Part shown: in pieces, positions 4,338-37,284 of the stretch | How the letters are laid out: each line of letters begins with the position of its first letter | Numbering within the stretch: the stretch's first letter is position 1 | DNA from: Chrysochromulina tobinii | Taxonomy: Eukaryota > Haptophyta > Prymnesiales > Chrysochromulinaceae | Length of the DNA: 40,994 nt | Assembly: GCA_001275005.1 (NCBI GenBank) | Contig: JWZX01002572.1 | Span: 1 to 40,994, forward strand | Reading direction: 5' to 3' | The notes under the pieces: generated by a model | What the model saw: the letters and a program-made list of their open reading frames with translations, nothing else | Told to the model about the DNA's origin: nothing | Database searches by the model: none | Made by a program: the position numbers and the translations under genes

Positions 4338-5305
4338 TTAGTCGGCGGATCTTGGGGGAAGAGAGAATACCGGACTAGCATCTGCGCCAGCCTGGTGCCA
4401 CCCTTCCCCCGAATGTATAGCAGAGGAACCAATAGGACCGCTGTTCGCAGCGGCCACAGCTGCCGCCGCACGCACGCGCGAGCGCCGCGGCGGCGTGAGC
4501 CCCGTGAGCCGGATCCGCACTCGCCACTCGTACCCCATCCGAGGGGTGGGCCCGTGAAGTCTCCGAGCCAGCACCCCTCTGCGCATGTCGCGCGCAGCCG
4601 TGCGCATACGCAGCACGATCTCCTGCACCGCGTGGCTAGCGCCCGCCACCTCGCGGCGCAAGGTCATGTAGCTGGCCACGATCGCCGATCGACGGGTCGC
4701 CCGTAGTCGATCGTCGAGGCTCAAGACGTTCGCGCGACACCTGCGCGCAGCAGCGCGAGCCCGATCGACCATGTCAGCGGCTCCCGGGCACGCATCGAGG
4801 CGTCGTTTAGCGAGAAGAAACTGGACGGTTGAATCTGCCTCCTGTGCCGCGTCGACGCTCGTCGCAGCGCGCGAATTTCACACAAACTTACGGTACCTTC
4901 ACAACGCGCGAGTGGAAAAATCAAACATGGTTCAATGGGGCTAAGGGCGGTGGTGACCATGGCGACCTCAACAAACAGTGACTCGAGCGCCTGGTGAGCG
5001 CTGCCGTGCAGCTCGTGCAGACGGTGTTGATCTCGTCGTAGGATTCCTACACGAGGCACCTCGAAGCGACGTGCCCTCGTGGACGGGGCGGTGTGAGGAC
5101 ACCATTTGCACCATTTGAGCTCGAGTCGCTTGAGTCCTTTGTCGCGGCGATGGAACCGGCGTCGCGCCTCGCTCTCGCTGGAGAGTGGTGTGATGTATGT
5201 CCCCGTGGTGGCGATCTCAATTGCGGTGGCGATCTCAATTGCGATGGCGATCACTGTTGAGATTGCGATCTCTGTCGAGATGCTCTTTATGTCGCTCGCT
5301 GTCAA
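4338..5305 (-). CDS. Candidate two-exon helical protein, unknown
   Basis: Minus-strand exons 5305-4892 and 4841-4338 can be joined across a 50-bp intron (4891-4842) with a consensus GTAAGT donor and a GGCACAG acceptor, keeping phase 0. The joined product is Arg/Ala-rich and helical, with stretches such as LHELHGSAHQALESLF and LRREVAGASHAVQEIVLRM, and has no domain I recognise. The proposed ATG (5305) overlaps the 3' end of the glycosyltransferase frame by about 70 bases and opens with a short tandem I/A/E repeat, which is weak support. The second exon could instead be a distal exon of the neighbouring gene, or the whole region could be non-coding GC-rich sequence. The intron is the best evidence. 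Confidence 0.3.
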
Positions 5306-6680
5306 GGAGCATGGCTATCGAGAGCGCCGCGGAGCCATTGACAAGATCGGGAGCATGATCATTCGCCATCACAAACGGGACGGCACTCGTTCTCAGCTCG
5401 AGCTTGAGCTCTCGCGCACAGTCAGCTCGCACCTTGAGGCAGCCTCGCACTGCCCTCGACGTAGATGTGGCATGGAGGGCGGTCGGTCGAGCGCAGCGGC
5501 GCGATGGCGTCTCCACGTGGCCGTGGCTGCGCGTGGCTTTGGATTTGCCAAGGGGCACACACACGCTGAGTGGCACATGCTCCTTCGTCCACTCTCCCAT
5601 CGAATGCAGCGCAAGGAAGTAGGTCGCGTACTCGGTCCACGGCTGCGACACGTCAGCCAGCAGAAGCTGTGCGAGGCGCTCCCATCGATCTTCCAACTGT
5701 CCGGTCGGCGGCGGAGTGCCTTCTGACGGAGTGCCTTCTCCGAGAGAGCCGGGATGGCTGCGCGCGAAGAGCACGCCTTCCATCTTATCCAGGCCGCGCC
5801 TGCTCAGAATCTGAGGCGTCCAGCCGAGTACCAGGCGCGTCGCGCCCCGATGAGCGTTGTACGGACTCGCATCCACCCATTGACTAAAGTTCCATCGGCG
5901 GGCTGAGCGAGCGATGTGCAGTGCGCCGTGCCACCCATTGAGCGGCTCGACGCATGTGCGCACTCGACCGTCGGCCGCGATGAACGCGTCCGCCAACGGA
6001 GTGCGCCAGCCGCGCGTGCACAGCGTGTCCGAGTCGAGCATCAGCAAGTACTCGCTACCGCCAGTGGCATGGTGGTGAGCGCTCAGCAGCTTGATCGCTT
6101 GCTGGCGGAGCCATCGATTGGACCAACCAGGAGAGTCTATGAACTGCCGCCGGCGTGCCACCGGGAGGACCTCGTCCTCGGCAAACAGAGCCCAGTGTGT
6201 GGGCAGCGCGAGCAACGACAAGCTGGGAAGGTCTGTTGATGGCGCAAAGATGAGCACACGCGACACGCTGCTCGGCGAGAGGGTCGAGCGGCACGTTCGC
6301 AGCTTGGCTCGCAACCAGTTGATGTCGCGGGCAAGACAAGGGAGCACCGCCACGATATTCGAGGTCGTGCGTCCGTCAGTAGCCGCGGTGGCGCACTGAT
6401 GCGGTCGCGTCTCTACGTGCGTGCTCGCGTGCTCGTGTGAATATTTTATTGCGAGCACGAGCACCACCATCAAAGCCATGATGCAAAGAGCGATGAGGCG
6501 ATGAGGCACATCCGCGAGCGATTCTTCTTCTGGTGCGTGCTCGCCTTCACCAGCTCGGCGATGCCCCTCTCCGTCTGCGTGGCGGCGCTCTCTATGTTGG
6601 TCTGGATGTTGTCGATCTGCGAGCCCTGCTCCTAGCGGTGTGGAGACACCTCCATTAAAATTCATCCATTGATCCTTCAC
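5235..6680 (-). CDS. DUF6492-type glycosyltransferase-like type II membrane protein
   Basis: The 481-residue frame has one hydrophobic segment (about residues 62-80, CIMALMVVLVLAIKY) followed by a luminal domain resembling DUF6492 (GT-A-like) proteins: a GWSNRWLRQQAIKL segment, a DxD-type LMLDSDTL, a LGWTPQILSR segment and a WTEYATYFLALH end. Such proteins are predicted to transfer sugars in the Golgi or ER; donor and acceptor are unknown. The first 60 residues are unusual: they are the out-of-frame reading of a syntaxin SNARE motif (see 6441-6631). A shorter start at the ATG inside the hydrophobic segment would give a normal signal anchor and is equally possible. The C-terminus ends in a D/R/N-rich stretch coded by short tandem repeats at 5217-5270, so the true 3' end may be spliced. 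Confidence 0.7.
   Translation of the reverse strand: MKDQWMNFNGGVSTPLGAGLADRQHPDQHRERRHADGEGHRRAGEGEHAPEEESLADVPHRLIALCIMALMVVLVLAIKYSHEHASTHVETRPHQCATAATDGRTTSNIVAVLPCLARDINWLRAKLRTCRSTLSPSSVSRVLIFAPSTDLPSLSLLALPTHWALFAEDEVLPVARRRQFIDSPGWSNRWLRQQAIKLLSAHHHATGGSEYLLMLDSDTLCTRGWRTPLADAFIAADGRVRTCVEPLNGWHGALHIARSARRWNFSQWVDASPYNAHRGATRLVLGWTPQILSRRGLDKMEGVLFARSHPGSLGEGTPSEGTPPPTGQLEDRWERLAQLLLADVSQPWTEYATYFLALHSMGEWTKEHVPLSVCVPLGKSKATRSHGHVETPSRRCARPTALHATSTSRAVRGCLKVRADCARELKLELRTSAVPFVMANDHAPDLVNGSAALSIAMLLDSERHKEHLDRDRNLNSDRHRN
6441..6631 (-). pseudogene. Syntaxin C-terminal exon remnant (SNARE motif plus TM), frameshifted
   Basis: Minus frame from 6631 reads EQGSQIDNIQTNIESAA, continues with a QTERGIAELVKAS segment and ends KKNRSRMCLIAS. 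This is the C-terminal half of a Qa/syntaxin SNARE motif and the pre-membrane basic stretch. It then hits a stop, while the expected membrane anchor continues in another frame (CIMALMVVLVLAIKY). The two frames are separated by an 8-bp tandem duplication at 6491-6506. Upstream of 6631 the frame has a TAG, but the sequence there is CCGCTAG|GAG, which fits a splice acceptor, so this looks like a terminal exon. No other syntaxin exons are visible in the window. The anchor part is reused in frame by the glycosyltransferase gene. Confidence 0.75.
6491..6506 (+). repeat. 8-bp tandem duplication (cgatgagg x2)
   Basis: Two adjacent perfect copies of cgatgagg. Counting one copy only, the SNARE motif and the hydrophobic anchor would lie in a single frame, so this duplication is the simplest explanation for the frame break in the syntaxin-like remnant. 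Confidence 0.9.
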
Positions 6681-9339: not shown

Positions 9340-12300
9340 ATGCTACGCATCGTGGACATCGACCAGGCTTCGAAGCCCGCCGCGGCCGACGCCGACGGCA
9401 CTGCCACGCCACTCTCGGTGGAGGCGCAGGAAACGGCCAACCATCAGCTCTACGAGGATGCGCTCGAGCTCAAGCTGGCAGGCAACATTATGGCGGCGAC
9501 CGCGGCATACCAACGGCTGCTCGCACAGGAATTGATTGCAAGCGCCGATGTGCACGAGAGTGCGACTCTGGAGCCCTCGCAGCCTCAGCGTCCGGCGCTG
9601 CACCTCAAGTTCCTCGCCCTGCGTAACCTCGCCGAGCTGCATGAAAAGGAGGGCAAGCTGCAGAGTGCCCTCGACTGCCTGCTGGTAGCGGTGCGCCTGC
9701 AGGATCGCGACGCGCTGGTGTGGCAGCGGCTCGGGTCACTCGCCGTGCGCACAGGCCGGCCACACCTGGGTCGGCTTGCGCTCGAGCAGGCGGTCGAATG
9801 CAGCCCGCACAATCAGCTGGCGGCACTGCGGCTGCGTGAGCTGCTCACCTCCCTCGGGGACCGCTCGGCGCTCGCACAGCTGCATGCGCGCGCGGTGCGC
9901 TCGCTCCCCCACCTCGCGCCCCATCTGACGCCGCCACCACCGCCCTCGCTCTCGCACGTCCTTGCCCTGACACCGCCCTCGGACGACGCCGACGCCGACG
10001 CCACGGTGGACACCCATGCGGACGACGCGGACGCGGACGTACCGCGACGCCCGAAGCGGCAGCGCGCTGACCATTGCCCCACCCTCGTGGTGCGCCTGCC
10101 GGAGGCTTCATGGGCGGCGGTGGCCAGTGCGCTTGTTGACACGTGGCGACGCCTCACCACAGACACCATTTCCACAGACACCACTTTCGGCGGCGCCGCG
10201 CCCGACGCCGGCACGTACATCCGTGCCTCTCTGGCGGCGCCGCCGCTGCCGTCGCTCGGCCGCCGAATCTCCCTCGTGCCACCGCCACCGGCCGCCGTCG
10301 TTGCACCGCCACCTGCGCCCGCGGCGCCGCCGGCGGAGGCCGTCGCAGTGGACGACGTGGAAATGATCGATGGCCGAGCAGCGCCTCGCGTCTCGTTAAT
10401 GATCGATGCCCCAGCAGCGCCTAGCGTCTCGGCCGGCGACAACACCCAGATCGATGCGGCACCGACGCTCGCGCCTGCCACCGCTTCCGACGCGTCCCTC
10501 AGCATCGTCGCCGCACCGGAGCCTGAGACCGACCCTGACTATGATGAGGCGCTGGGGGCGGCGGTGGCAGCGGCGGCGATAGAGGAGGCGTTGCAAGCGA
10601 GCGGGTCGCACCGGGTCGCAGCGAGCGTCTCGCGCAAGTCGAGCCGCGTCGACCCTCGCAAAACGTCGCCGCTCGACGTGCTGGCATGCGCTGACCGAGT
10701 GGTGCCGGGTGGTCCGGGGCTCACCTACACGGTGGGCGGCGCGGAGGCAGGGGGCGTCGATGCCGAGCGTGTGCTGCGCGAGGTCGAGATCGACGACGCC
10801 GCGCTCAACCTCACCGGCCCATTTCTGGTGTGCCGGCGCATCGCGCTCTTCCGGAGCGGCCGCGTGGTGGCCGCGGCGGTCTTCGAGCTGCACGCGGCCG
10901 CCAACGTGCTCGAGATCCCCATCTTCGCCTCGTCGCGCGCCCACCGCCAGCAGGGTAACGGCTCCGTGCTGCTCGCGCTGCTCGTCGAGCTCGCCGTGCG
11001 CCACCTGAATGCGAAGGTGCTCGTCGTCTCCGCCACTAATGAGAGCCGGCGCTTCTGGCTGAGCATGGGCCTGCACGTGGCTGCCCACTGCCCGCCGCCC
11101 GTGTCCGCCGCGCTCCGCTACCTCAAGGCGCACGGCTACGTCGCCATGGGCTTCTTCTCCTCGACGACGCAGATGGCGAAGGCTTTACCGCCCGCGGTGA
11201 GCGAGGCTGGAGAGCTCGTTAAGATGGCTTTGCAGCGCGCCGCCTCGAAGACGGCCATTTCGCGCAACGGGCTCTCGGCCGCGCGCGTCGCCGACGTCCT
11301 TGGCTACGCCGACCTCGCCGCCGGCACCCCCTCCTTTGTCCTCGAGCGCGCGAGCGGGGCGCGTGTGCCCCTCGGATATGGCGCAGCGGGCGCATGCCAG
11401 AGCGGGGTGCAGCCGTGGCGGCTGCAGGCCTTCGAGCGGACCGAGGGGGGCGGGGCGGGCGTGGGCGTGAGCGGCTGGGGCGAGCCCGGCTGGGGCGTCC
11501 GCTGCTCCACCGCCCTCGAAAAGGGCCAGGTCGTCGTCGAGGTGACTGGCGAGTGGCTCAACGAGGAGGCACACAAGAACCGCACGGACGTTCGCTTCAT
11601 GCTCCCTCTCGACGACAAGACAGCGCGGCGCGAGGGGTTGGCGCCGACCTTCTTGGACCTGCGCGAGGCGGGCTCACTCGCGCGCCTCGTGTCCGTGTGC
11701 GTCGAGGCGCCCAACCTCGAGCTCCTCCTTATCCCCACAGGGGTGGCCGCGCCCATGCCCGCGCCCCTGAAGCCCGCGCCCATGCCCACGCCGCCACCGC
11801 CCGCCGCTTCGACCGACGGCGCGACGGCGGAGGCGGCTGAGGGCGATGTGCCCATGGCGGATGGCGCGGCGCCGGAGACTGCCTCCTCCTCAGCTGCGGT
11901 GATGCATGCGCTCGATGCAGCGCTCGAGGATGCAACCGTCGTGGCAGCGCCCGCAGCTCCGCCGGCACCGGCGCTGGCGCCTTCGATGCCCATGCAAGTG
12001 CTCACCACGGCGCCGGTGCCTCCGATGCTGGTGCGAGCCTACTTGGTGGCACGTCATGACATTCCTCCTATGGTCGAGTTAACGTGGGCGGGGCCGAGTG
12101 GCCACACGGCTCGCCAGCCCGCGTCCTCGGCACCGCCCGAACCCTCGCGTAAGCAGCCCTCGCGCCCCTCCCGCAAGCGTGCTTCTGCCAAGCTCGAATC
12201 AGACCCACGCACCTCGCCTGCCAAGCGGCTGTCCATCGCGCCACTCCCGCCCGTGCCCAAGCGAGAGCTCTCGCGACTGCTCGCACAGTTTGCATGCATG

Positions 12301-15300
12301 CCTCCCTCGCGAGCAGCGATGCAGCCCAGCCCGATGCGACGTGCCGCCGCGGCCGCGGCCGTGACCGGCCTCGCTGCAGCCACATCCGCTGATCAGACGC
12401 CACCGGCGGCGGCAACTGATGGAGTCGTGAGCACCGTTGTGAGCGCTGCGGAGGAGGCGCTTGTTCGGCGCTGGCTAGCGCGCGCCGAAGTGGGCGCCAA
12501 CAGTGGCATCGTCCACCTCGCCTCCCTCCTTCTCACACACGTCCTCTGCGAGACCGATGACGCCGATGACCCCCATGACGACGCGAAGGACGCGACCGAC
12601 GCGGCCGGTGCACCCAACGGCGAGTTGTCGATGGCGGCAACGTCGCCGGCGGTGGATGGCTTCGGGTGGTTGCTGCGATCGATGCCGGCGGCGCACCGCG
12701 CGCGCCTGGGCAATCGGATCCTCGACCTCGTCGCGCTCATGGACGACGGGCCGTGCCGTGCCCACGGCATGGGGTCCGCCGCGGCTGCGGCCGCCATCGC
12801 CATCGGCGGCGGCAGCTCGGGCTGCGGACGGTGGCCTTTGGCGGTGGCGATGTCGGTGATTGAGCTTCAGATTGCAGCTGCGACGGCGGCGACGGAGAGC
12901 GCACGCTCAGCAGCGGGCGGCGGGCGGGTCTTTGCGGGCGACGGCTTGACAGCGCTGGCCGATCGGCTTGCGGTGATGGTCGCGAGGATGCGATGGTCGC
13001 AGCCGGGGCCATCGACGCCGCGGACGGGCGTGCGGGCAGCGGGGCGGCTGGGCGTGCAGCTGGATGTGCAAGAGGACGAGCAGGCAATGTGCGATCATGT
13101 GCCTGCATCGGCTGCGCGGCTGTGGCTACGGCTAGGCTGGGCGCGTGCTCAGAGCGACGAGCTGCGAGGGCGGGCCGCCGCCTCCATCGACTCGCTGCGC
13201 GCATGCAAGTCGCTCCTCTTGCACGCACCCGCCTTCCTAGGCACCGTGCGTCCAGTGCCGCTGCTAGGGCCTCCGTGTGTCATCGAAGCGTCCATGCTCG
13301 CGGCGGCCGAGGGGCGGCAGGCGGAGCGGCGCTTGCTGCAGGAGGCACATGCGGCGCTGGCGGCGGTGGAGGTGCAGTGTGGCGCGTGCGTCGGTGGCGA
13401 GTGGGTGAGCAAGCTTCGGGTGAAGGACGAGGCGGCAGCAGGCGAGGGCGCACTTCGCTGCTTCGCTGCATGGGAGGAAGCCCTCGCTGCAGCCGCGACC
13501 AAGGCCCGCACGCTGCTTTTCAAGGCTGCCGCCGCCGAGCCAAGCGCCGTGCCGGGCACTGGGCCGGCCGCCGAGTCAAGCTTGGAACCGGGCGCCGAGC
13601 CGGGGTCGTCGACCGCGGCCGCGGTTGCTAGCGGCGCACGTGCCGTCGCAGCGGCGGCGCAGCTGATCGCCTCTGATGACGCCGCGTTGCCTGTCGCGCT
13701 CGCCCTCTTGCATACGTGCTGGGTGGGTGTGTGCACTGCACCACCCGCCGCCGCCCCTACGGCGGATGCGATTGCGCCGGCGGCTGCGCTGGCGCCCTTG
13801 CTTGGCGTGTACGACGACGCGCTGCACGGCGCCCTTGGCGTGTGTGCGCGCGCGGCGGCCCTGCCCGATGAGCCAATCGAGGTGTCGGCCCAGGCTGCAA
13901 GCGCCATGCTGGGCGCTGAGGGTGCGCCGAGCCTCGGGACGCTCGTGTGTGGGGTTCTCGTGCGTCCTCTTGAATGGCGCCTGACAGGCTGGCTGCTGAG
14001 GCTCATGGCGGCGCTCGATGCCTTTCAGCAGCATGAGAGGCGGCGGCTGGGGCGGGTGGGTACGGTCCCTCTGGGTGTGCAGAGCGAAGCGAGCGATGCA
14101 TCGGAGGCGATGGAGGTCGACGGCGCGTACGCGGGCCATGAGGAATCGTGGGCAGGGGCGGTCGAGAGGCTCATGCCGCGTGTGGCGGCGATTGCCGAGT
14201 ACGCGAGCACGGGGCTACCAACCCAGGCTCAGTCAGTTACCCGGCCAATGCTCCACCACGCGCTCACGTGCTTTGGTAAGCTGTGGCTGCTCCGGCCGCG
14301 CCCGTCGGCCGAGGCCCTACTGTTGCTCGAGGGGCTGTGGAAAGCCGCCGCTGCCTTCCACGTCACGTCCACCCCCGTCGTCGACGACGTCAGGCTCGAC
14401 GCTGCCGGTGGTGGCGTGGCAGCGGCGGCGGCACGGGCGGCGCGGGCAACGGCAGGGCGGCGGCAGGTCTGGGAGGCGCCCCTCGCTCAGCTGTGCCTGG
14501 TGACGTCGTTGGCCGAGCTGGAGCGGCTCGAGGCGGCCGGGCAGACCGAACGCGATGCGCCGCGGCTTGAGGAACGCGCCGCCACCGCTACCGCCACCGC
14601 TACCGCCCCCGCTACCGCCCCAGCTGCTGTCCCGGCCGTCGCCTCTGCGCACGGCGCGGACGAGGAAGGGGGGTCGGAGGCAGGTGGCTGCGTGGTCGAT
14701 GACGGCGCGGGCAGAGGTGCGGCGCTGACGCCGGGGGAGCGCGAGCGACGGATGGTGCTGTTCCATGCGCTCGAGGCGGCGGTGCGACATGCCAGGCAGC
14801 TCGAAAAGGCGGGCGACGCGCCGGTGTCTGGCGCGGAGGGGTGGCTGGTGCGATGGAAGCCTCGGGCGCGCAAGAGTGCCGGTGGCGTGAGTGGCGATGC
14901 GTACATGATCTCACCAACCGGCGTTTCGTTCCGCTCGTTTCGTGAGGCGCAGGCGTTCCTTGGGCTGTCGGAGGCAAGTAGCGGTGTCCCCGCAGCTGCT
15001 GCCTCCGCCGACGGAAGCGATGCCTCCGGCTCCACCGCGCTGGCGGCGCTGCCGGCCCCTTCGCTGCCCATCTCGATGACGAAGCCGAACCGCGCCGCCG
15101 CGTCTGTTGAGGGGCGAGCAGGGGCGCCGGCTCCGGGCGCGGCCGACACGACGGCGCATGAGGGGTTGCGAGGCGCGGCCATGGCGGAGCCACACACGAT
15201 GTCAGAGGGGTGGGAGTGCCTGCTACATGCATGCTGCCAGCACCTGTACGGCACACGAGCCGACGCCCTCTCTCCCGCCGTACGCGCCCCTCTCAAACTG

Positions 15301-18300
15301 ATCGACGTCGAGGCCGACAAGGCGCGGCGCGACGAGCGGCGGCGGGCGTTGCAGAGCGAGTCGGTGGCCGAAGGGCATGCGACACTGCTCACCGTGCTCC
15401 TCCGCCTCACACCAGCCCTCCCCGCGCTCCGGGGGGTTCTTGGGTCGCTCGGGTTTGAGGGCGCGTCCCTCCGAGCTTTTGGGGCGACTGCACTTCCGCC
15501 CTCCCTCGCGCGTGCGGTGGCTGAGGCGCGAAATCGGGAGCTCAAGCTTCATCTGCGCCGCTTGATGCCGCCAGAGGTGTGCCCGGCGCCTAAAGGATCT
15601 CTCGTGGCCGAGGGCGAGGGGTCGAGGCTGTGGCTTGTGCCGCCGCCGCTCAGTGCGATGCCGGCGCATGCGCTCAAGCTCCTGAATGCCATCGGAGGCG
15701 CATACAGCCTTCGTACGACCGCCGAGGGCGCGACTGCGGAGGAAGCGGCGGCGTGCGGCAGTGCGGAGGACCGCTCGTTGGGCGGCCAGCTGTGCGCCGC
15801 CCTAGGCGCCACCGAAGCTTCCCTGGCGGAGGCAGAGTGGGCGGCGGCCGTATGTGGAGACTCTGTGCTTCTACGGCTTGATCGCGGCCGGCTCGCGGGT
15901 TCGACTGACGACAAGACGCGCCGCTGGATGAAGCTCCTCAAGTGGTCGATGGCGCTCGTGGCGCAGTCTGTGCGCCTCTGTGCATGGCAGGCGCCCTCGC
16001 CTCTGATCAGCTCCGCCAGCCCCTCGGGCTCCACGCTCGTCGCCGCACCCCCGCGTCCACTGAGCACGCCGCGCCTCTTCGATCGTCCCTGGGAACTGGC
16101 TCTCTCCCTCGGCGTGATGGCTCGCAAGCTGTGGCACCTGCAGCTCGACGCATGCCTTGGCCCGACCGGACCTCTCACCGCCACTTCCGACGACGTCGCG
16201 TATGACGAGCCGATCAGCGTGGCCGAGCCTCGCCCACGGGCCGCAAGGCTGCCCGACTACAGCGAGCGCAAGCTCATGGACTTTAGCGCCGCCGCCGCGA
16301 GTAGCGCTGCAGCCCTCGCGCAGCATTGCCTGCGATGGGTCCTCGCTCAACCCCTTCTCTGCCCGCCGCTCAACACTGAGCCGTCGACGGCTTTGTGTGC
16401 CGAGCCGGCGCCCGCCTCGGCGGCGTCACGCACTCCGCTGGGCACGCCCGTGGGCGTGCGTCTGGCGGCGCGCGCGCGCGAAGAGCTTGCTCTGTGTGTG
16501 CGAACCGAGGCTGGAGTGCTGGTACGCGCGGAGCGGATGCGCGGCGGCGCGGCGCCCATGCTGCCGCTCGTGCTGCGCCCTGAGCGCCATGATAGCAGCG
16601 GCGCGGCGTGGGCGGAGGTGGCGGCGCTGTTGCGGGCGCAGGGGCTCGACACCCTTGTGGGATGTGATCTGCTAGTGCACTGGCCATTAGATCGGCGCTG
16701 GTACCGCTGCCGCGTACTCGCCCACGACGGCGCGCGTGCGGAGGGGCATCATCAGGTGCGTTACGAGGCGGACGGCATGCTCGAGTGGCTTGATCTCGAG
16801 GCGGAGGTGTGGCGACTGTGCCCAGCCTCTCAACAGCCCGCCGCAAATGCTGCTGCCAGTGCTGGCGCCAGTGCTGGCGCCGGCATGCAAACGGCGGACG
16901 CGCTCGCGCCCTCGGCTGAGTGTCTGCTGAGCGGTGCGCGGGGCTCGCTCGCGCGTCGGCTGTACGGCGAGGCGCTCTCTCACACTGGGGCACCCGCGCG
17001 CCTCTGGCTGCGGGAGCTCTCTCTCGCTACACGCCTCGCCGCCGCCGAGCCCGCCGGCACTCCGCGCAGCCAGGCCGCAGCGCTCCACGCCCTCACCGCC
17101 GCACAAGCGAGCCTGCTCGTGCGAGCGATGCGCGCCGACGATGACGCGCGCGCCGCTCCGGACGACGCGTGTTACGGCGCCGACGAAGGCATTGAGGCCG
17201 CCGAGGGCGCTGCTGACTTGCCGTCGGCGACGGCAACGACGACGAGCGGCGACGGCGATGCTGTCGCAAAACTGCGGCTGCTTTTGGAGCGCTTCGGGGT
17301 GGCTGAGACGACCAAACAAGTGCGGGTGGGGTCCGCATCGGCGCGAGCAGCCTATGCGGCGGCAGATTATGCGGTGGACGAGGCCGAGGCGGAGGGTGAC
17401 CTCGATGAGGTCGAGGTCGAGGTGGAGGTCGAGGCAACCGAGCCGGAGCCGGCCTCTGCGGATGCCGCCATGGTGGAGGCGGCCGAGGAGGCGGCCGAAG
17501 AGCCCACCGAGGAGGCGGATGAGGTCATAATGACCGCGTTGGAGGACGACGAGCTGGCCTCCGACACTGCCAACTCGGCCGCCCCCACCGCCGCCGCTCT
17601 CGCGGCAGCCAACATCGTCGCGGCAGCCTCGGCGGCGAAAAGTGGCACTGCCGGTGCTACCGGGTCTGGTACCACGTGTGCCGCCGATACCGCTACCGGT
17701 ACAGGAGCCGCGACGGCGGACATTCTCATCTCCGATTGCGAGGTGGCACTCAATCGCTGCCTGCAGCAAGACCGCTTCCATCACCGCTCACGGCTGCTCC
17801 TCGCTCAGCTTGCGTGGGCGCCCAGGAGGCGCGTGAGCGTGGCACGCGCCCAATGCGAGGCGCTGCTGACCAAGGCGGGTAAGCTTGCCAAGAAGCCGGC
17901 TCTCTGCTGGAATCTCTGGCAATACTCGACCGCCTCGAGTGATGACGAGCGCGAGGGGACCTCACTTCGAGCTTACGAGCTGCACGAGGATGCGATCGAG
18001 CTCGCTCGCCTTTACGCGGCCGTCCTGCTCTCCGACGGCTCTCCGCCGCCGCTGCCGCCGCTCTCGCCCAACGCGCCCGCCGCTGCCATCGCGCCACCGG
18101 CCGCAATGCCACCCGACCCCTCGCGCCCGCTGCTGCTGTTGCGAACGCTTGCAGACTTTGCACTGAACGAGGCGATGCCTTCGCTTCGGCGGCATGTCAT
18201 CAAAGGCTATCTGCACTGCCTGGTCCGTCACGTAGATGCGCACAGCCGCATGCTCGCCGCCCCGCCCCACGAAGCCGCGAGCGACGGCAGCACGGTCAGC

Positions 18301-20226
18301 GGGGGCAGCACGGTCGGTGACGGCGTCGGAACAGGCACGATGGCCGATGCCGCGGGCGCTGGCGGCGGCAGCAGCGGCCCGAGCGGCGCGGGTGGGCCGA
18401 CGCCGCTCGAACGTCAGCCCTCGCAGGCAAACGTGGCGAGGCGCGCCAAACAGGATACGGAGCTGCTCAGCCGACGGCGCGAGCTGATGCGATGTGCTCA
18501 CGAGATCACGAGCGAGCTCGAGTACGCCACGCTCCTTCCCCAGCTCGCGCGCGGGCGCACTGCCGAGACGCTCCTCTCGGATGCCTTCCGCGCGTACCGC
18601 ACGCTGCAGCAGGCGATCTATGATCAGCAGCGCCAGCAGCAGCAGCAGCAGCAGCAGCTCGCACAGCAGCAGCAGGCTTTGCAGGAGCAGGCTCTGCAAC
18701 AGCACGTGCTGAAGCAGCATCAGGCTATGCAACAGCATGTGCTGCAGCATCAAGCTATGCCCATGCAGCAGGCGATGCCCATGCAACACGCAATACCCAT
18801 GCAGCACGCTATGCAAACGCAGCAGCAGGCTAGTTCCATTCGGCAAGCTATGTCTATTCAGCAAGCTGTGCCCATGCAGCAGGCTATGCCCATTCATGCT
18901 GTGGCGGGGGCGTCATACTCAACCATGCCCGCGTCGTGGCTCCCGGCCGCCGCGCCCTCAAGTTGGCCACCTGCTGGCATGGCGCCTGCGCACATGGGCA
19001 CGTATCAGCACCAGCACGATGGTGTCTCCGCCCCGACCGCCTCCGCCGCACCTTCTGCCCCCTCCGCCGCGGCCGAGTCGGCAAGTGCAGATGAGGCGAA
19101 GCTGCCGCACCAACTCCTTGCTGCACGTATCCTCGCCAGGGTATCATCGGCCCCAGCTGCCGCCCCACCTGCAGCCGCCCCACCTGCTCCCGTTCCACCT
19201 ACTGCCGCCGCGCCCGCTGCTGTCCCCCCTGCTGCGGCCACCGACGGCATTTCAAGCTATGCCGCGGCCTTCGCCGCCGCCACCGCGGCCGCTGCCGCCG
19301 CCCCCGCCGCCTCTGCCGCCACTGCCGCCACCGCCGCCGCCGCCGCCTCCGCTGCTGCTGCCGCCTTTGCCGCCCAGTCGCGCATTCCTTGGCCAAATCC
19401 TATCCACCCGTCGCCTCTGGCCGACTACCGCGCGCCGGGTCTCCTTCCCACAGCCAGTCTTCCAACAGCCAGCAGCAGCCTGCCACCGTCCTTCGCTCAC
19501 GCTCTCAATCATGGGCCGTTGACAACAAACTTTCTCACGTCCTACTCGATGCGACCCTCGCTGCCTTCCTCGCTGCCACCCTCGCTGCCCTTCTCCTCCC
19601 TGCTGCCACCTGGGCCGCCATCCCGTCCGCCGCCGCCGCCGCCGCCGCCATCTGCCCACCCGCCGTTACCGGCAGAGAGCGCTGGCGCGACGGAAATCGC
19701 CGCCTTCTGCACCTTGGCCTTCGGAGTGGATCCTAAGCGAGCGCCCAAGCCCCTTGCCTCGAAGCTGCCGCCCAAGGTTCTATCCAAGAGCCGTAGTGCT
19801 CTGGCGCTCAAGGACAGCCTCTGGCGCCCACCCGCCGGCTTTGGCGCTCCCGCAGATGCCCCTGGCGCCGCTGGCGGCTCCGGCGGCAGTGCGTCATCGC
19901 TCGCTCACGGATCCCGCGCCAACGACCTCGGCACCCCCCGCGCTCCTGCCCCACTCGCCGGACAGAGCGCGCCGCCAAAGGCGAGCGGTTACACGCAGGG
20001 GCAGATTGCAGCCGCGGTGGCCGCTCATGCAGCCGCGGCGGCCGCGGCGGCCGCGGCTTCCGCGGCTTCCTCGGGGCGTGCCGCGCCGAGCCCTGCGATG
20101 GGCGGCGCAACATCCGTGCCCTTGCCGCGCGCAAACTCCTCGACGGGCGCACCGGCGCCGGCGCCGGCGCCGGCCGTCGTGGCCGAGGAGCCGATGGAAC
20201 AGCTCATCGAGGAGCTCGATGACTGA
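9340..20226 (+). CDS. HIR3/CABIN1-type histone chaperone subunit with added GNAT, SET-like, MBD-like and Tudor-like modules
   Basis: About 3628 residues in one uninterrupted frame; the frame opens at 8839 but ATG 9340 begins the conserved part. Residues 28-195 match the N-terminal TPR region of HIR3/CABIN1 (LYEDALELKLAGN, LKFLALRNLAELHEKEGK, ALVWQRLGSLAVRTGR). A CABIN1-like C-terminal region starts near 2790 (CLQQDRFHHRSRLLLAQLAW). Between them lie a GNAT acetyltransferase-like domain (about 460-615, acetyl-CoA loop RQQGNG at 536-541), a SET-like domain (about 700-920, GWGVRC at 717, degenerate catalytic core), an MBD-like module (about 1832-1878, DAYMISPTGVSFRS) and a Tudor-like module (about 2437-2493, LLVHWPLDRRWYRCRV). 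There are also an RRPKRQR basic motif near 236, an acidic tract (2678-2744) and a Gln/Met/Pro-rich tract. HIR3/CABIN1 supports replication-independent H3.3 deposition by the HIRA complex in the nucleus. The orthology call is good; the activity of the added modules is inference. Confidence 0.85.
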   Translation: MLRIVDIDQASKPAAADADGTATPLSVEAQETANHQLYEDALELKLAGNIMAATAAYQRLLAQELIASADVHESATLEPSQPQRPALHLKFLALRNLAELHEKEGKLQSALDCLLVAVRLQDRDALVWQRLGSLAVRTGRPHLGRLALEQAVECSPHNQLAALRLRELLTSLGDRSALAQLHARAVRSLPHLAPHLTPPPPPSLSHVLALTPPSDDADADATVDTHADDADADVPRRPKRQRADHCPTLVVRLPEASWAAVASALVDTWRRLTTDTISTDTTFGGAAPDAGTYIRASLAAPPLPSLGRRISLVPPPPAAVVAPPPAPAAPPAEAVAVDDVEMIDGRAAPRVSLMIDAPAAPSVSAGDNTQIDAAPTLAPATASDASLSIVAAPEPETDPDYDEALGAAVAAAAIEEALQASGSHRVAASVSRKSSRVDPRKTSPLDVLACADRVVPGGPGLTYTVGGAEAGGVDAERVLREVEIDDAALNLTGPFLVCRRIALFRSGRVVAAAVFELHAAANVLEIPIFASSRAHRQQGNGSVLLALLVELAVRHLNAKVLVVSATNESRRFWLSMGLHVAAHCPPPVSAALRYLKAHGYVAMGFFSSTTQMAKALPPAVSEAGELVKMALQRAASKTAISRNGLSAARVADVLGYADLAAGTPSFVLERASGARVPLGYGAAGACQSGVQPWRLQAFERTEGGGAGVGVSGWGEPGWGVRCSTALEKGQVVVEVTGEWLNEEAHKNRTDVRFMLPLDDKTARREGLAPTFLDLREAGSLARLVSVCVEAPNLELLLIPTGVAAPMPAPLKPAPMPTPPPPAASTDGATAEAAEGDVPMADGAAPETASSSAAVMHALDAALEDATVVAAPAAPPAPALAPSMPMQVLTTAPVPPMLVRAYLVARHDIPPMVELTWAGPSGHTARQPASSAPPEPSRKQPSRPSRKRASAKLESDPRTSPAKRLSIAPLPPVPKRELSRLLAQFACMPPSRAAMQPSPMRRAAAAAAVTGLAAATSADQTPPAAATDGVVSTVVSAAEEALVRRWLARAEVGANSGIVHLASLLLTHVLCETDDADDPHDDAKDATDAAGAPNGELSMAATSPAVDGFGWLLRSMPAAHRARLGNRILDLVALMDDGPCRAHGMGSAAAAAAIAIGGGSSGCGRWPLAVAMSVIELQIAAATAATESARSAAGGGRVFAGDGLTALADRLAVMVARMRWSQPGPSTPRTGVRAAGRLGVQLDVQEDEQAMCDHVPASAARLWLRLGWARAQSDELRGRAAASIDSLRACKSLLLHAPAFLGTVRPVPLLGPPCVIEASMLAAAEGRQAERRLLQEAHAALAAVEVQCGACVGGEWVSKLRVKDEAAAGEGALRCFAAWEEALAAAATKARTLLFKAAAAEPSAVPGTGPAAESSLEPGAEPGSSTAAAVASGARAVAAAAQLIASDDAALPVALALLHTCWVGVCTAPPAAAPTADAIAPAAALAPLLGVYDDALHGALGVCARAAALPDEPIEVSAQAASAMLGAEGAPSLGTLVCGVLVRPLEWRLTGWLLRLMAALDAFQQHERRRLGRVGTVPLGVQSEASDASEAMEVDGAYAGHEESWAGAVERLMPRVAAIAEYASTGLPTQAQSVTRPMLHHALTCFGKLWLLRPRPSAEALLLLEGLWKAAAAFHVTSTPVVDDVRLDAAGGGVAAAAARAARATAGRRQVWEAPLAQLCLVTSLAELERLEAAGQTERDAPRLEERAATATATATAPATAPAAVPAVASAHGADEEGGSEAGGCVVDDGAGRGAALTPGERERRMVLFHALEAAVRHARQLEKAGDAPVSGAEGWLVRWKPRARKSAGGVSGDAYMISPTGVSFRSFREAQAFLGLSEASSGVPAAAASADGSDASGSTALAALPAPSLPISMTKPNRAAASVEGRAGAPAPGAADTTAHEGLRGAAMAEPHTMSEGWECLLHACCQHLYGTRADALSPAVRAPLKLIDVEADKARRDERRRALQSESVAEGHATLLTVLLRLTPALPALRGVLGSLGFEGASLRAFGATALPPSLARAVAEARNRELKLHLRRLMPPEVCPAPKGSLVAEGEGSRLWLVPPPLSAMPAHALKLLNAIGGAYSLRTTAEGATAEEAAACGSAEDRSLGGQLCAALGATEASLAEAEWAAAVCGDSVLLRLDRGRLAGSTDDKTRRWMKLLKWSMALVAQSVRLCAWQAPSPLISSASPSGSTLVAAPPRPLSTPRLFDRPWELALSLGVMARKLWHLQLDACLGPTGPLTATSDDVAYDEPISVAEPRPRAARLPDYSERKLMDFSAAAASSAAALAQHCLRWVLAQPLLCPPLNTEPSTALCAEPAPASAASRTPLGTPVGVRLAARAREELALCVRTEAGVLVRAERMRGGAAPMLPLVLRPERHDSSGAAWAEVAALLRAQGLDTLVGCDLLVHWPLDRRWYRCRVLAHDGARAEGHHQVRYEADGMLEWLDLEAEVWRLCPASQQPAANAAASAGASAGAGMQTADALAPSAECLLSGARGSLARRLYGEALSHTGAPARLWLRELSLATRLAAAEPAGTPRSQAAALHALTAAQASLLVRAMRADDDARAAPDDACYGADEGIEAAEGAADLPSATATTTSGDGDAVAKLRLLLERFGVAETTKQVRVGSASARAAYAAADYAVDEAEAEGDLDEVEVEVEVEATEPEPASADAAMVEAAEEAAEEPTEEADEVIMTALEDDELASDTANSAAPTAAALAAANIVAAASAAKSGTAGATGSGTTCAADTATGTGAATADILISDCEVALNRCLQQDRFHHRSRLLLAQLAWAPRRRVSVARAQCEALLTKAGKLAKKPALCWNLWQYSTASSDDEREGTSLRAYELHEDAIELARLYAAVLLSDGSPPPLPPLSPNAPAAAIAPPAAMPPDPSRPLLLLRTLADFALNEAMPSLRRHVIKGYLHCLVRHVDAHSRMLAAPPHEAASDGSTVSGGSTVGDGVGTGTMADAAGAGGGSSGPSGAGGPTPLERQPSQANVARRAKQDTELLSRRRELMRCAHEITSELEYATLLPQLARGRTAETLLSDAFRAYRTLQQAIYDQQRQQQQQQQQLAQQQQALQEQALQQHVLKQHQAMQQHVLQHQAMPMQQAMPMQHAIPMQHAMQTQQQASSIRQAMSIQQAVPMQQAMPIHAVAGASYSTMPASWLPAAAPSSWPPAGMAPAHMGTYQHQHDGVSAPTASAAPSAPSAAAESASADEAKLPHQLLAARILARVSSAPAAAPPAAAPPAPVPPTAAAPAAVPPAAATDGISSYAAAFAAATAAAAAAPAASAATAATAAAAASAAAAAFAAQSRIPWPNPIHPSPLADYRAPGLLPTASLPTASSSLPPSFAHALNHGPLTTNFLTSYSMRPSLPSSLPPSLPFSSLLPPGPPSRPPPPPPPPSAHPPLPAESAGATEIAAFCTLAFGVDPKRAPKPLASKLPPKVLSKSRSALALKDSLWRPPAGFGAPADAPGAAGGSGGSASSLAHGSRANDLGTPRAPAPLAGQSAPPKASGYTQGQIAAAVAAHAAAAAAAAAASAASSGRAAPSPAMGGATSVPLPRANSSTGAPAPAPAPAVVAEEPMEQLIEELDD
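18600..18900 (+). repeat. CAG-rich tract encoding polyGln and MPMQQA-type repeats
   Basis: Imperfect cag/caa runs followed by degenerate copies of atgcccatgcagcaggct within the HIR3-like gene. They encode a Gln-rich stretch and then alternating Met-Pro-Met-Gln-Gln-Ala units. Length variation between strains is likely. Confidence 0.85.
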
Positions 20227-26201: not shown

Positions 26202-28479
26202 ATGGCGTACCGCCCGAGTGGCGAAGTATCCAAGAAGCCCTCGTACCGTGGCACCAACGGCATGCCTCGGCAGGGCGACGACGAGCGCACGCTGCACGTG
26301 GGCGTGACCGAGGGCGACGTGGCGCAGCGGATCGTGACGTGCGGCACGGAAGAGCGCGCGCGAGCAGTGGCGGCGAGTTTCGACGGCGGCATCATCGAGC
26401 GTGAGATCTCATCGGCTCGCGGCTTCCTTACGCTCACGGGCAATTGCAACGGCGTGCCGGTCAGCGTGGTCGCCACGGGCATGGGCGTGGCCATGATGGA
26501 TTTCATGGTGCGCGAGGTGGTGGCAGTGCTGCCGGCAGTCTCCGTTTCGGATGATGACGAGCCCACCGCGGCGCGCGCGCTCATCGTGCGCTTCGGCACG
26601 TGCGGCTCAATACGCGAGGATGTTCCGGCGGGCACGGTCGTCGTGTGCTCGCCGGGCTCGACGATGGTGCGGCGCCAGCCGGACGCGTTCTGCATGCACG
26701 GACCGCAGGCGTGCGCCTACCACGTGTGCAACGTCGTCCCCTCGGATGGCGCCCTCTCGCGCGCCGTCGAGGGCGAGCTGAAGACGGCGCTCGGCGCGCA
26801 CTCAGTTGTGGCGGCACTCAACGTGTCCGGCTGCTCCTTCTACTCATCCCAGGGGCGCCAAGATGGGAGCTTTGAGGACGGCCATGAGCTGGGCGACCCG
26901 ATCGCTATGGTGCGTGCCGCCCACCCGGACGCGGCCTCGTGCGAGATGGAGACCTTCCACTTACTCGACGTCGCTCGGTGTGCGCGCCCGTATGGGCGTG
27001 CCGTGCGCGCCTCGGCGGCCGCGATTGTGGTGGCGCATCGGCCGTCGGGTGATGTGCTCTCGGGAGAGACGATCGAGCGGCTCGAGCGGCTTGGCGGAGC
27101 GGCCATCTTGCGCGCGCTCGCCGCCACGCCGCTCGAGATGCCGGCCGCCGCCGATGCTACCGCCGCGCCGACCGCGCCGGCGGTGCCGCGTCCCCTCGCG
27201 CCTCCAACGTCCAAGGCACACGTGGTCAAGCTCTCGTACGCCGACTTGCTCAGTGGTGCCGACGTGAACGCCCAGGTGTGAACGCCGCATGATGACCACT
27301 GGTTGCCACTGATTGCCTCGTGAGTACCACTGATTCGCGCCGCCACTGAGCGCCCAGGTGGCCGCCGCGTATGGATACGAGGGCCTCGGGCTGCTGCTGG
27401 TGACCGGGGTGCCTGGGCTGCTTGCAGCTCGTCAGGCGCTGCTGCCGCTCGGCGCATCAGTCGCGGGGCTGCCCGGTACGACGCTTGCGTCGCTCGAGAC
27501 GCCCGCGGCCTTCTATGCCGTCGGCTGGTCGCATGGAAAGGAAGCACTCGAGGGGAGGCCCGACCTCGCCAAGGGCTCGTACTATGCCAACCCGCTGCTC
27601 GATGCCCCGTTTGGTCGGCCCGCCGAGCCGAGCGCCCTCGCCCAGTTCCCCTCGTACGCCCACCCGAACGTTTGGCCGACGGCGGCACTGCCCGCGCTCG
27701 AGCCCGCCTTCAAGGCTCTCGGTCGGCTCGTCGTCAACGTGGGCAGCGTCGTCGCGACCGCGTGCGACAAGTATGTGGTCGCCGAGCTGGAGCGCAAGGG
27801 CAGCGCAACGGCCGGAGGCTACCCCATCAACCAACTGAGCCGAATCGTCTCTGACCCTCGCTGCTGCAAGGCCCGGCTGCTTCATTACTTCCCGCTGAGC
27901 CCAGATCATGGAGATCTTGGAGATCATGGAGATCATGGAAAGCAGGCCGAGGCCGACGAGAAAGCGAGCGCGCCCGAGGGCGGCGCCGAATTTTCGGACT
28001 GGTGTGGCTGGCACAATGACCACGGCTCGCTCACGGGGCTTGTGTCGGCCATGTACCTAGACTCGCGTACTGGCCAACCCCTTGCCGCGTCGCCCGATCC
28101 GACGGCCGGGCTGTACATTCGTGACCGACACGGCGCGCTCCACCACGCCGCGTTCCGAGCGGACGAGCTCGCATTCCAAATCGGGGAGGCGGCGCAGATC
28201 CACTCCGGCGGCGTGCTGCAGGCGACACCGCACGCTGTGCGGGGGTGCGCGCCGACGACGGAGCTCGGCCGGTGTGCGTCACGTGAGTCGTTTGCCGTCT
28301 TCATGCAGCCGTGGGCGCAGGATTGCATGGGCGTGCCCGCCGGGGTCGACCCTGCAGTCGCGCAGGCGCAGGCTGCGATCGAGGCTTTGCCCAAGCGCGT
28401 GCCGCCGCTCGCCTCGCGCTGGGAGAATGGCATCTCTTTTGGCGAGTTCACACTGCGCACGATCGAAAAGTATCACTGA
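26202..28479 (+). CDS. Uridine phosphorylase fused to a 2-oxoglutarate/Fe(II) oxygenase (one intron)
   Basis: Exon 1 (26202-27275) encodes a PNP/UDP-family phosphorylase: phosphate-binding GTCGSIREDVPAG (residue 132 on), substrate loop SFYSSQGRQDGSFED, and CEMETFHLL (EMET at 248-251). This fits reversible phosphorolysis of uridine. Exon 2 (27358-28479) encodes an isopenicillin-N-synthase-like oxygenase: CGWHNDHGSLTGL with HxD ligands (codons 28012 and 28018), then ATPHAVRG giving the third His (28231) and the 2OG-binding Arg (28240). Exon 2 has no in-frame ATG before a stop at 27331. Exon 1 ends with HVVKLSYADLLSGADVNAQ, which looks like the missing N-terminal strand of the oxygenase. An 82-bp GT-AG intron (27276-27357) joins them in phase 0. 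Predicted product: 731 residues, probably cytosolic. Confidence 0.8.
27276..27357 (+). other. Predicted 82-bp phase-0 intron
   Basis: Donor CAG|GTGTGA, acceptor GCGCCCAG|GTGGCC. If it is not removed, translation stops at TGA 27279. CCACTG occurs four times inside. The same CCCAGGTG string lies at both borders. Confidence 0.75.
27904..27939 (+). repeat. Four tandem 9-bp units in the oxygenase
   Basis: Units of gatcatgga/gatcttgga encode the DHGDLGDHGDHG insertion between the N-terminal part and the HxD motif. The insertion is in frame, probably a surface loop. Confidence 0.9.
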
Positions 28480-34584: not shown

Positions 34585-34917
34585 CAGGAGCTCCTCTGTG
34601 TGCTCTTCTGGCCATTGGATGTTGTTAGCGTTGGGCGGTACGTGCTGCAGAAGGGGTTAAAAGACGCCCCGGTCGGGGCCAACACGAGGGACCGCGAATT
34701 TTGTGACGCTTAACATAACACCGCCGTGACCTTTATGAGCTTTGCGTCTTACATTGTATGATCGCGCGCCTTCGTGGTAACGGTCACAGTGCCAAAAACA
34801 GCCCGCCCTTCTGCGAGCCTCCGTCCAGAGCAGAGACGAGCGCACACCCGTGCGCTGTCCTCCCTGCGTACGTGCCACGTGAGTGGGTTGCAGCTCACGA
34901 AGCGCCGCAGCAGCAGC
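34585..34917. promoter_or_regulatory. Divergent promoter, coiled-coil gene / armadillo gene
   Basis: About 330 bp between divergent starts. A relatively AT-rich part (34690-34760) includes gcttaacataacac and a cattgtatgatcg stretch. Candidate core promoter; no defined box. Confidence 0.45.
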
Positions 34918-37284
34918 ATGTCACGAAAGCAAGATTCAAAGTACAACGCCGCGGAGGCCGCGATCGTGACCTTCGTTGAGGCGCTCGGCAAGCTCGCAGC
35001 GAACGCTGACATGCGCACGATGGTACGCGACGCGGGTGCGATCTCGCCGCTGGTTGCCCTGCTCGTTTCCGGCACGGGAAATGTGCCGGGTTTGGCGGCC
35101 TCGGTGCTTCGCGACCTCGCGTTGCACTCGGGCAATCGCACGGCCATCCTCGAGTCGGACGGTGTTGCACAGCTCGTGCGCATGCTCCACAACGAGTCGA
35201 AGGTGATCGCGAGTGAAGCGGCTGACGCGCTCCGCTCGCTCGCGGCCAACAATGGCGCCGTGTGCAAGGTGGTGCGTGACAACGGCGGCATCAAGATGCT
35301 CGTCAAGCTCGCGCAAGGGGGCAAGGCGGCCGAGGCGGCGACGGGCGCCATCTCCAACATCGCCGAGGCGGACCCGACGAGCCGGCAGGAGATTGGGGAT
35401 GAGGGCGGCGTCGCGGTGCTCGTGTCGCTGCTCGTCGACGGGCTCGACAATGTCGGCAAAGAGGGCGGGAGGGCGAGAGATACGGACTGGGCGTACTCAC
35501 ACGCGTCAGAGGAGACGTCAAAGGCGCTCGTCCAGCTCTCAGGCCACTCGAGCTGCGTCAAGCGTATGCTGGACGCAAGCATCGTGGGTCCGCTGGTGCG
35601 GCTGCTGCTGCGCGCGTACGGGCACTCGCAAACCGCGAGCAGCAACGCGGCGAGCCTGCTCGTGATGCTACTCACGCAGCATCCGAGCGAGGCGATGGTA
35701 CAGACCCTCGATGCGTTCACGCTGGCTCGTAAGGATGAGTCACTCGTCGTCGCAAGTCAGGGGTGGTCGCAGGCCTTCCCTGACCTCAAGACGCTGCTTC
35801 ACGCGGCGGTGGAGAAGAGGCTAGCCGCGGTCGAGGAGGGCAACTCCTCCGCAGCCATCCAGCAGGCGATCGAGATCGGGCGCGCCGTTGAGATTCCGGA
35901 TGAACGGCTCGAGGCGGCGAAGGCGACCTTCCAAGAGTTCCAGGACAAGCGCCGGCGAGAGAAGCTGGCGGCGGCGGCGGAGGAGCGGCGCTCGCGCAAA
36001 GAGGAGGAGCGCCAGCGCCAGCTCGAGCGCGAGGCGGCGGAGGCGCCCGCGGCTGAGGATGTGGGCAAGAGATCCACCCGAAAGGCGGCGCTCAATACAG
36101 GCGCGGTCAAGCCAGCCTCCCACACAGCAGCGCTGATAAAGAAGGCGGAGATACTGAGCGCACAGGCTGCACAGAGCGGCACGAGATCGTCAGAGGAGCA
36201 GAAGCTCGCCGCCGAGGCCGCCACGGTCACTGCCATGGAGGGCATGAATCCTCTGGTGCGTGAGCGCATGCTCAAAAAGATGGTGCGGGACGGCGTCCTG
36301 GTGCCGGGAGCGACTGGCATCCTCGCGGAGTATGCGACAGCCCTTGGGCTACTCCCGAGCGCGAGCCTCATCCCGGCGGAGGCGCAGAGCCTCACCCCGT
36401 CGGGACGGGGCGCGCTGCGTGGCCAGATGGAGTATGATGGCAACGGCGGCTACCGCCCGAAGGGTGACCTGACAGGGCTGATGGTGTCTGATGACGCCAA
36501 TGAGGTTCAGCGGCGTGCCGCGAATCGCGCGATGGAGAAGGCAAAGGCGCAAGCGGCGCGCAACGACCTAGCTTCCAAGGCGATGCAGCGGCGGCTCGCG
36601 ATGCTCGGTGGGCCGGGCAAGCAAGTGCCAGCCGAGGGCGACAACTACGACGAGGAAGACGACGATGACGATGACGCGTGGACCGATGGCTCTTCATATG
36701 ATGTAGATGAGGATGAGGATGAGGCTGCGGCCGCGCGCGCGGCCGCCCTCGTCGGTCTACCGTTGGGGAGCAATGGCGGCGCACAGCAGCAGCCCAAGAA
36801 GGGCTTCTTCGGGGGGTTCTTCGGAAAGAAGAGCGACCCGCCGCCGAATGAGGGCGACGCGGGCGCCGAGGGCACTCGTAAACGCCGCCGGCGCCGCCGC
36901 CGCCGTCGCCCCAAGGACGGCGAGACTTTAGGTCTCTCGGATGGTTTGCCCACCTCAGCAATCTCGAGCACAGCGGATGGCTTCAACTTGCCCTCGTACA
37001 TGATGCCCATGTTCAGCAAGATGCTCGTGCGCCCCGACGAGGGGCAGCAGCTATTCATGCTGGGGGGCAAGGATCCGATGAAGCTCGACGCGTGGCGGAA
37101 GCGGTGGGAGAATAAGTTCACCCACAACGACCGCCATATCTACGGAGCACCCACTGGGGGCACCACAACGGCGCTTGGCGATCGGGCGATGCTCGATCGA
37201 AACAAGCTGTCTGACTCGCAGTCCAATGCCGGCCTGACCGAGTCGCAATACGCCCAGCTCACTCGGGGCGCATACTCTGCATGA
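34918..37284 (+). CDS. Armadillo-repeat protein with basic/acidic C-terminal region
   Basis: About 788 residues from ATG 34918 (MSRKQDSK); an in-frame ATG at 34774 would add 48 residues of low interest. Armadillo repeats run through about residues 10-260: DAGAISPLVALLVSGTGNVP, SDGVAQLVRMLHNESKV, NGGIKMLVKLAQGGKAAEAA and IVGPLVRLLLRAYGH. A charged helix (about 340-380) follows, then an acidic run (EEDDDDDDAW), GFFGGFFGKK, a run of ten arginines that could be a nuclear signal or bind RNA, and a conserved-looking tail (LPSYMMPMFSKML, WENKFTHNDRHIYGAP). ARM repeats bind proteins; the partner is unknown. I recognise no orthologue. Confidence 0.8.
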   Translation: MSRKQDSKYNAAEAAIVTFVEALGKLAANADMRTMVRDAGAISPLVALLVSGTGNVPGLAASVLRDLALHSGNRTAILESDGVAQLVRMLHNESKVIASEAADALRSLAANNGAVCKVVRDNGGIKMLVKLAQGGKAAEAATGAISNIAEADPTSRQEIGDEGGVAVLVSLLVDGLDNVGKEGGRARDTDWAYSHASEETSKALVQLSGHSSCVKRMLDASIVGPLVRLLLRAYGHSQTASSNAASLLVMLLTQHPSEAMVQTLDAFTLARKDESLVVASQGWSQAFPDLKTLLHAAVEKRLAAVEEGNSSAAIQQAIEIGRAVEIPDERLEAAKATFQEFQDKRRREKLAAAAEERRSRKEEERQRQLEREAAEAPAAEDVGKRSTRKAALNTGAVKPASHTAALIKKAEILSAQAAQSGTRSSEEQKLAAEAATVTAMEGMNPLVRERMLKKMVRDGVLVPGATGILAEYATALGLLPSASLIPAEAQSLTPSGRGALRGQMEYDGNGGYRPKGDLTGLMVSDDANEVQRRAANRAMEKAKAQAARNDLASKAMQRRLAMLGGPGKQVPAEGDNYDEEDDDDDDAWTDGSSYDVDEDEDEAAAARAAALVGLPLGSNGGAQQQPKKGFFGGFFGKKSDPPPNEGDAGAEGTRKRRRRRRRRRPKDGETLGLSDGLPTSAISSTADGFNLPSYMMPMFSKMLVRPDEGQQLFMLGGKDPMKLDAWRKRWENKFTHNDRHIYGAPTGGTTTALGDRAMLDRNKLSDSQSNAGLTESQYAQLTRGAYSA

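Follow-up and report, generated by a model that had tools for sequence, protein, structure and literature searches.

Organization of the open frame and its orthologue

The analysed stretch of Chrysochromulina tobinii DNA (the window) comprises the 40,994 nucleotides of contig JWZX01002572.1 and carries a giant open frame, the features of which are listed in Table 1. The homologue search with residues 1-210 (3,210 candidates) found a single relative, P0002 (sources lgn and ena), a protein of 3,212 aa that is 64% identical over 95% of the query. A profile built from the window protein and P0002 and run up to E 10 against 5.8 billion proteins (2,269 candidates) returned P0002 alone. The two proteins are co-linear from end to end, from the start residues (MLRIVDID in the window protein, MLRFVDID in P0002) to the QLIEELD end, and show 50% identity in the full alignment. 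Start, TPR region, MBD-like stretch, Tudor domain and C-terminus are shared, whereas the GNAT-SET block is missing from P0002.

Table 1. Features of the giant open frame, in window positions
Feature	Position	Strand	Basis
Single open frame, 3,628 aa	9340..20226	+	3,628 codons from ATG; co-linear orthologue P0002
Frame layout: TPR scaffold (HIR3/CABIN1-like), putatively inserted GNAT-SET module, MBD-like stretch, Tudor domain, C-terminal conserved region, low-complexity tail	9340..20226	+	
TPR region, residues about 25-195	9412..9924	+	TPR_2 E 2e-5, TPR_9 1.1e-4, below cut-offs
GNAT-SET block, probably captured, residues 430-931	10626..12131	+	Gap-free duplicate on contig C982; absent from P0002; GC3 step
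GNAT acetyltransferase core, IDM1-type; RQQGNG acetyl-CoA loop at 10945 (residue 536)	10843..11064	+	IDM1_C, Acetyltransf_1
Degenerate SET domain, interrupted by low-complexity sequence; motifs RLVSVCVEAPN (residue 782) and ELTWAG (residue 913)	11488..12102	+	Pfam SET E 0.0018, below cut-off
MBD-like stretch, residues 1833-1876	14836..14967	+	Pfam MBD 18.6 bits, cut-off 21
Tudor domain, residues 2439-2492; aromatic cage W2448, Y2455, Y2475	16654..16815	+	Profile match to 7de9
Conserved C-terminal region, residues 2796-2970; DRFHHR at 2811	17725..18249	+	53% identical to P0002

The start of the frame is the same in a third record, P0007. GC3 ranges from 0.70 to 0.86 along the frame and is 0.62 in the in-frame stretch upstream of position 9340, a drop that agrees with the assigned start. 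Residues 1-430 are single copy, the window being the sole match when the genome was searched with them. A chance open frame was ruled out by the end-to-end alignment with P0002, and a chain of several split genes by the continuity of P0002; one uninterrupted gene, as proposed in an earlier note made from the letters alone, therefore stands.

At the N-terminus (residues 1-260), matches were found to TPR_2, TPR_9, TPR_14 and other TPR families at E values from 2e-5 to 3e-4, each under its own Pfam cut-off, and the N-terminal profile matched TPR chains in the PDB, for instance OGT and PEX5. The C-terminal region, which the earlier note had described as CABIN1-like, is indeed conserved in P0002; the name found no backing, as neither a Pfam family nor a pertinent solved structure matched the region.

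Nearby frames whose Pfam matches pass the cut-off encode proteins of the phosphorylase superfamily (26202-27281, + strand), with armadillo repeats (34774-37284, +), with a rhodanese domain (39393-40637, +) and with DUF6492 (5235-6680, - strand).

The GNAT-SET block, its duplicate and evidence on selection

The block has a duplicate at positions 17398-18903 of contig C982 of the same genome. The match extends over 1,506 gap-free bases, 95.5% of which are identical, and stops abruptly on both sides. Across the block, C982 has an open frame whose phase is that of the window frame, which in turn is kept across both junctions. In P0002 the site is empty: once the block is left out, the window flanks EALGAAVAAAAIEEALQASGSHRVAAS and PPEPSRKQPSRPSRKR align across the site with EALGFAVAAAAVACALRAAASGVHEARTVPEPSRRQPSRTSRKR. 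Searching the genome with the GNAT part retrieved five places, namely the window itself, C982 (96% identity), C437 (46%), C1178 (41%) and C2082 (33%). Base composition also sets the block apart. At 0.86 in the window and 0.862 in C982, its GC3 lies above that of all 2,195 overlapping 502-codon stretches of the frame outside the block, where values run from 0.693 to 0.793. A high GC3 does not characterise the GNAT-SET family throughout, as the GNAT piece of C437, a more distant relative, has a value of 0.764.

When scanned alone, the 181-aa GNAT piece scored 33.2 bits with IDM1_C (cut-off 33) and 21.7 bits with Acetyltransf_1 (cut-off 20.7); in the whole protein and in longer contexts both fell below cut-off. 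IDM1_C matches 10 of the 11 rows of the GNAT-SET family alignment (E up to 0.01), and the R, Q, G and G residues of the RQQGNG loop are invariant in all of them. Compared on its own with the PDB, the GNAT part retrieved nothing better than E 0.49. As far as profiles can tell, the GNAT domain is real and of the IDM1 type, and the GNAT-like fold with its acetyl-CoA loop had been correctly read from the letters.

The SET fold, too, is real by profile: against solved structures, the GNAT-SET family profile matched EHMT2 (2.3e-6) and ASH1L (1.2e-5). SET catalytic motifs are of the NHSCxPN type and, with the catalytic Tyr, of the ELTYDY type; the window protein has RLVSVCVEAPN and ELTWAGP at these places, where the C437 protein has RLINDCHEAPN and ELTWDYG. 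The missing motifs led us to reject an active SET domain; a working methyltransferase is unlikely, and of the SET-like writer that had been proposed the fold is retained and the writer role is not. The motifs are lost in P0004, P0005 and P0008 as in the window, and their loss must thus predate the capture.

The window block and its C982 copy differ at 68 of 1,503 bases (dS 0.10). dN/dS is 0.28 for the module as a whole and varies among its parts: it is 0.14 in GNAT residues 430-620 (7 nonsynonymous and 17 synonymous changes), 0.11 in SET residues 701-800 (2 and 6), 0.61 in the low-complexity insert and 0.72 in the SET end. In simulations of a neutral window branch, the conservation of the GNAT and SET core had a P of 0.003-0.008, for segments that were picked after the data had been viewed; for the whole module, with all 30 nonsynonymous changes placed on the window branch, P was 0.065-0.16. 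The block stayed open by chance in 20-30% of neutral runs (P 0.20-0.30), so that the lack of stop codons is no evidence of selection. Purifying selection on the captured GNAT is likely, short of proof.

These figures bear on a credible though unlikely alternative, according to which the insertion is real and has no function, being a neutral passenger in a disordered linker. The youth of the insert, as measured by its synonymous divergence, the failure of the whole-module substitutions to reject neutrality and the fast-changing low-complexity part would all fit such a passenger; the conservation of the GNAT and of the SET core, with the caveat on the choice of segments given above, speaks against it.

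The host scaffold and its predicted reader domains

The N-terminus of the host was compared with an approximate N-terminal sequence of a plant CABIN1. In this single comparison, the window protein showed 33% identity over 166 aligned positions (E 3e-19), and P0002 showed 33% identity over 172 positions. The likeness goes beyond the TPR consensus, as it includes EAQE, FLAL-NLA, SP-N and GD. The host further resembles HIR3/CABIN1 in being a giant scaffold, and genes for HIRA (69.3 bits) and ASF1 (three matches, the best at 228 bits) are present in the same genome. HUN (Ubinuclein/Hpc2) gave no match in a genome search in which the controls were silent too. The window protein differs from HIR3/CABIN1 in its Tudor and MBD-like stretches and its GNAT-SET block; HIR3/CABIN1 members are not known to carry any of these.

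PDB searches for HIR3/CABIN1, whether by whole protein, N-terminus, C-terminal region or full alignment, gave generic TPR or unrelated chains, the Tudor structure being the only match of the full-alignment profile below E 0.001. The approximate plant sequence itself matched no Hir3 chain in the PDB. Likewise, neither the homologue search with the N-terminus nor the profile search of 5.8 billion proteins retrieved a HIR3/CABIN1 record. This silence, together with the commonness of TPRs, would suit a host that is another giant TPR chromatin scaffold; against that reading, which we hold to be improbable, stands the likeness of both orthologues to the plant N-terminus beyond the TPR consensus. The host is thus likely, though unproved, to be HIR3/CABIN1, as judged from the approximate plant sequence. 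Of the HIR3/CABIN1 TPR opening claimed earlier, the TPR-like N-terminus is borne out by profiles, and the name depends on that same sequence.

A three-sequence profile of the Tudor region (window, P0002 and C437) matched the PDB entry 7de9 at 9e-10, while Pfam TUDOR reached just E 0.3, below cut-off. According to PMC8184781, 7de9 is the Tudor domain of Arabidopsis RDM15 bound to H3K4me1, with a cage formed by W616, Y623 and Y641. These residues align with the three cage aromatics of the window protein, which are kept in P0002 and C437. The Asp pair that confers the preference for monomethyl-lysine is not clearly kept, and the window Tudor, unlike that of RDM15, sits in a TPR scaffold. The domain is a real, RDM15-like Tudor with its aromatic cage kept, and is predicted to read methyl-lysine.

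The MBD-like stretch is less distinct. It falls below the Pfam cut-off, yet was matched in both orthologues. Of the 18 PDB rows retrieved by its profile up to E 1, 15 are methyl-CpG-binding proteins (one named attachment region binding protein) at 0.11-0.86, with MeCP2 and MBD4 at 0.11-0.18; a glycosyltransferase occupies the top two rows, at 0.043. The arginine of FRS (R1865), taken as one of the DNA-contact arginines of the kind found in MeCP2, is an aspartate in P0002. The stretch is likely to be an MBD by descent, and its function as a methyl-DNA reader is doubtful. Elsewhere in the genome, four MBD matches over cut-off were found, and C5-methyltransferases gave 12 matches on 9 contigs.

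The modules named in the earlier note are for the most part borne out, the MBD weakly. They do share one reading frame with the TPR N-terminus, and they did not arrive as one package: Tudor and MBD-like stretch also occur in P0002, which is without GNAT-SET, and on this comparison they are older in the host gene and the GNAT-SET block is a recent capture. That a TPR scaffold of this size has kept Tudor and MBD-like readers in two species suggests that reader functions have been built into a chaperone scaffold.

Origin of the block and its predicted role

Nine relatives of the block were found by homologue search, one of which (P0003) is the same reading as the C982 gene and another (P0007) a second record of the window gene. 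The C982 gene begins with an N-terminus of the SYxE type (VSYVEPDEDEF), which is also present in P0005, P0008, P0010 and P0011, four of the seven other non-HIR3 relatives, is not clearly seen in P0004, P0006 and P0009 and is missing from the window block. An Agenet tail occurs in P0008 (44.7 bits) and, just under the cut-off of 27, in P0004 (26.3 bits); the remaining five of the seven are shorter or end earlier than this tail. With presumed introns skipped by eye, the tail of the C982 gene is also of the Agenet type (22.8 bits, below cut-off). C982, with both the family's own N-terminus and an Agenet-type tail, thus contains a complete gene of the family, of which the window block is an internal piece. 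The GNAT-SET-Agenet genes (C982/P0003, P0004 and P0008) contain the same module as the window gene (94-96%, 61% and 41% identical, respectively), but are free-standing, about 600-730 aa long, with their own N-terminus and Agenet tail and without a TPR part. The block is likely to have come from C982 or from a close copy; a third, unsampled, near-identical copy could also be the true donor.

The reverse course, in which the block is old in the window gene, was cleanly lost from P0002 and was copied from the window gene to C982, is very improbable. It would be compatible with the one block-free orthologue known and with the 29 amino-acid differences between the copies, which when polarised by P0004 (5 derived in the window, 7 in C982, 17 undecided) give no direction. 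Donor-type genes with their own N-terminus and Agenet tail nevertheless exist elsewhere (P0004 and P0008), and C982 has both ends; the block is compositionally foreign to the host; and synonymous divergence between the copies is no more than 0.10, against 50% identity of the host proteins.

The left junction is also seen in P0007 (590 aa; source ena, contig 18,786), which comes from an independent assembly and has TPR part and GNAT joined in a single frame. Over 584 residues its sequence departs from that of the window protein at 4, none of them outside the host part; the LSLIHI with which it closes we take to be translated sequencing adapter. The right junction is present in the window assembly alone. 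An assembly chimera, in which the 1.5-kb repeat misled the assembler, is barely credible: repeats of this length are a usual cause of misjoins and the right junction has no second witness, but both flanks are one gene in P0002, the copy is set apart by 68 base differences, the left junction recurs in P0007 and the frame is kept across both junctions. No relative turned up in viral contigs, which were scanned with the N-terminus, with the GNAT-SET family and for the exact right junction.

The precomputed domain list of P0007 shows PF27596.1, which is absent from P0003. As P0003 is without it, PF27596.1 may lie in the TPR host part of P0007 and could name that part.

Taken together, these comparisons make it probable that a HIR3/CABIN1-type scaffold with old readers has recently captured a GNAT-SET block from a GNAT-SET-Agenet gene. 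The host would be a very large TPR scaffold, most likely the HIR3/CABIN1 subunit that serves the HIRA histone chaperone complex in this lineage; before the capture it would already have carried a Tudor predicted to read methyl-lysine and an MBD-like stretch. The linker that follows the TPR region would then have received, in frame, a 1.5-kb copy of part of the first coding exon of a GNAT-SET-Agenet gene (C982 or a near-identical copy). The captured GNAT may still acetylate, as its acetyl-CoA loop is kept and its amino-acid changes are few, and would thereby be tethered to the chaperone. The SET part, whose catalytic motifs are gone, would serve as a binding or structural piece, and the Tudor, perhaps with the MBD, would guide the complex to marked chromatin.

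An arrangement of this kind might couple H3.3 deposition to acetylation. On a stronger version, which we put forward tentatively and regard as possible rather than probable, the HIRA scaffold itself would be an acetyltransferase: the Tudor (perhaps the MBD) would read chromatin, the captured GNAT would acetylate histones under deposition, and the pairing of MBD and GNAT in plant IDM1 would have been rebuilt by capture. IDM1 (ROS4) of Arabidopsis has the make-up MBD-PHD-GNAT. The window protein likewise combines an IDM1_C-family GNAT and an MBD-like stretch in one chain, but its scaffold differs and its domain combination is of separate origin. No PHD family was found among the Pfam matches of the whole window protein up to E 1.

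Inference of domain capture mostly has to rely on old fusions that have become blurred. In this case the young insert, a likely donor and the empty-site orthologue are all visible, which makes it possible to follow how a new chromatin protein was born. The trail of the capture is unusually good, with the chaperone role and the enzyme activity predicted from sequence; it is datable and open to sequencing in strains and to tests of function. If the GNAT is active, the gene is a natural experiment: it would show whether a replication-independent histone chaperone deposits something different once an acetyltransferase is tethered to it. No title or abstract opening pointed to this fusion in a literature search whose coverage leaves out most subscription journals.

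The right flank of the insert (12132-12165, CCCTCGCGTAAG) is similar to the bases with which the block opens (10627-10640, GTCTCGCGCAAG), possibly as microhomology at insertion, or by chance.

Other members of the family show arrangements of their own. In C437 (13380-20786), a 2,469-codon frame contains a GNAT, a complete SET (37.2 bits, over cut-off) and a Tudor of the window's kind; here GNAT-SET has been joined to a reader for a second time and independently. In C2082 (3942-6071), a frame has SR-rich and KH-like sequence (KH by reading of the sequence) followed by a GNAT of 33% identity that is related to this family. Downstream of the GNAT-SET exon of C982, at about 19012-19135 and 19250-19500, lie intron-like inserts of repeated TGATTGCATGC / TGATGGCATC units ending in CTCATCAG, each side bearing a copy of the flank GTTCGTCAGCACGA[AG]CC or CCCTTTGATGACGACCACGTATGG; such inserts resemble introns of the introner type with duplicated targets.
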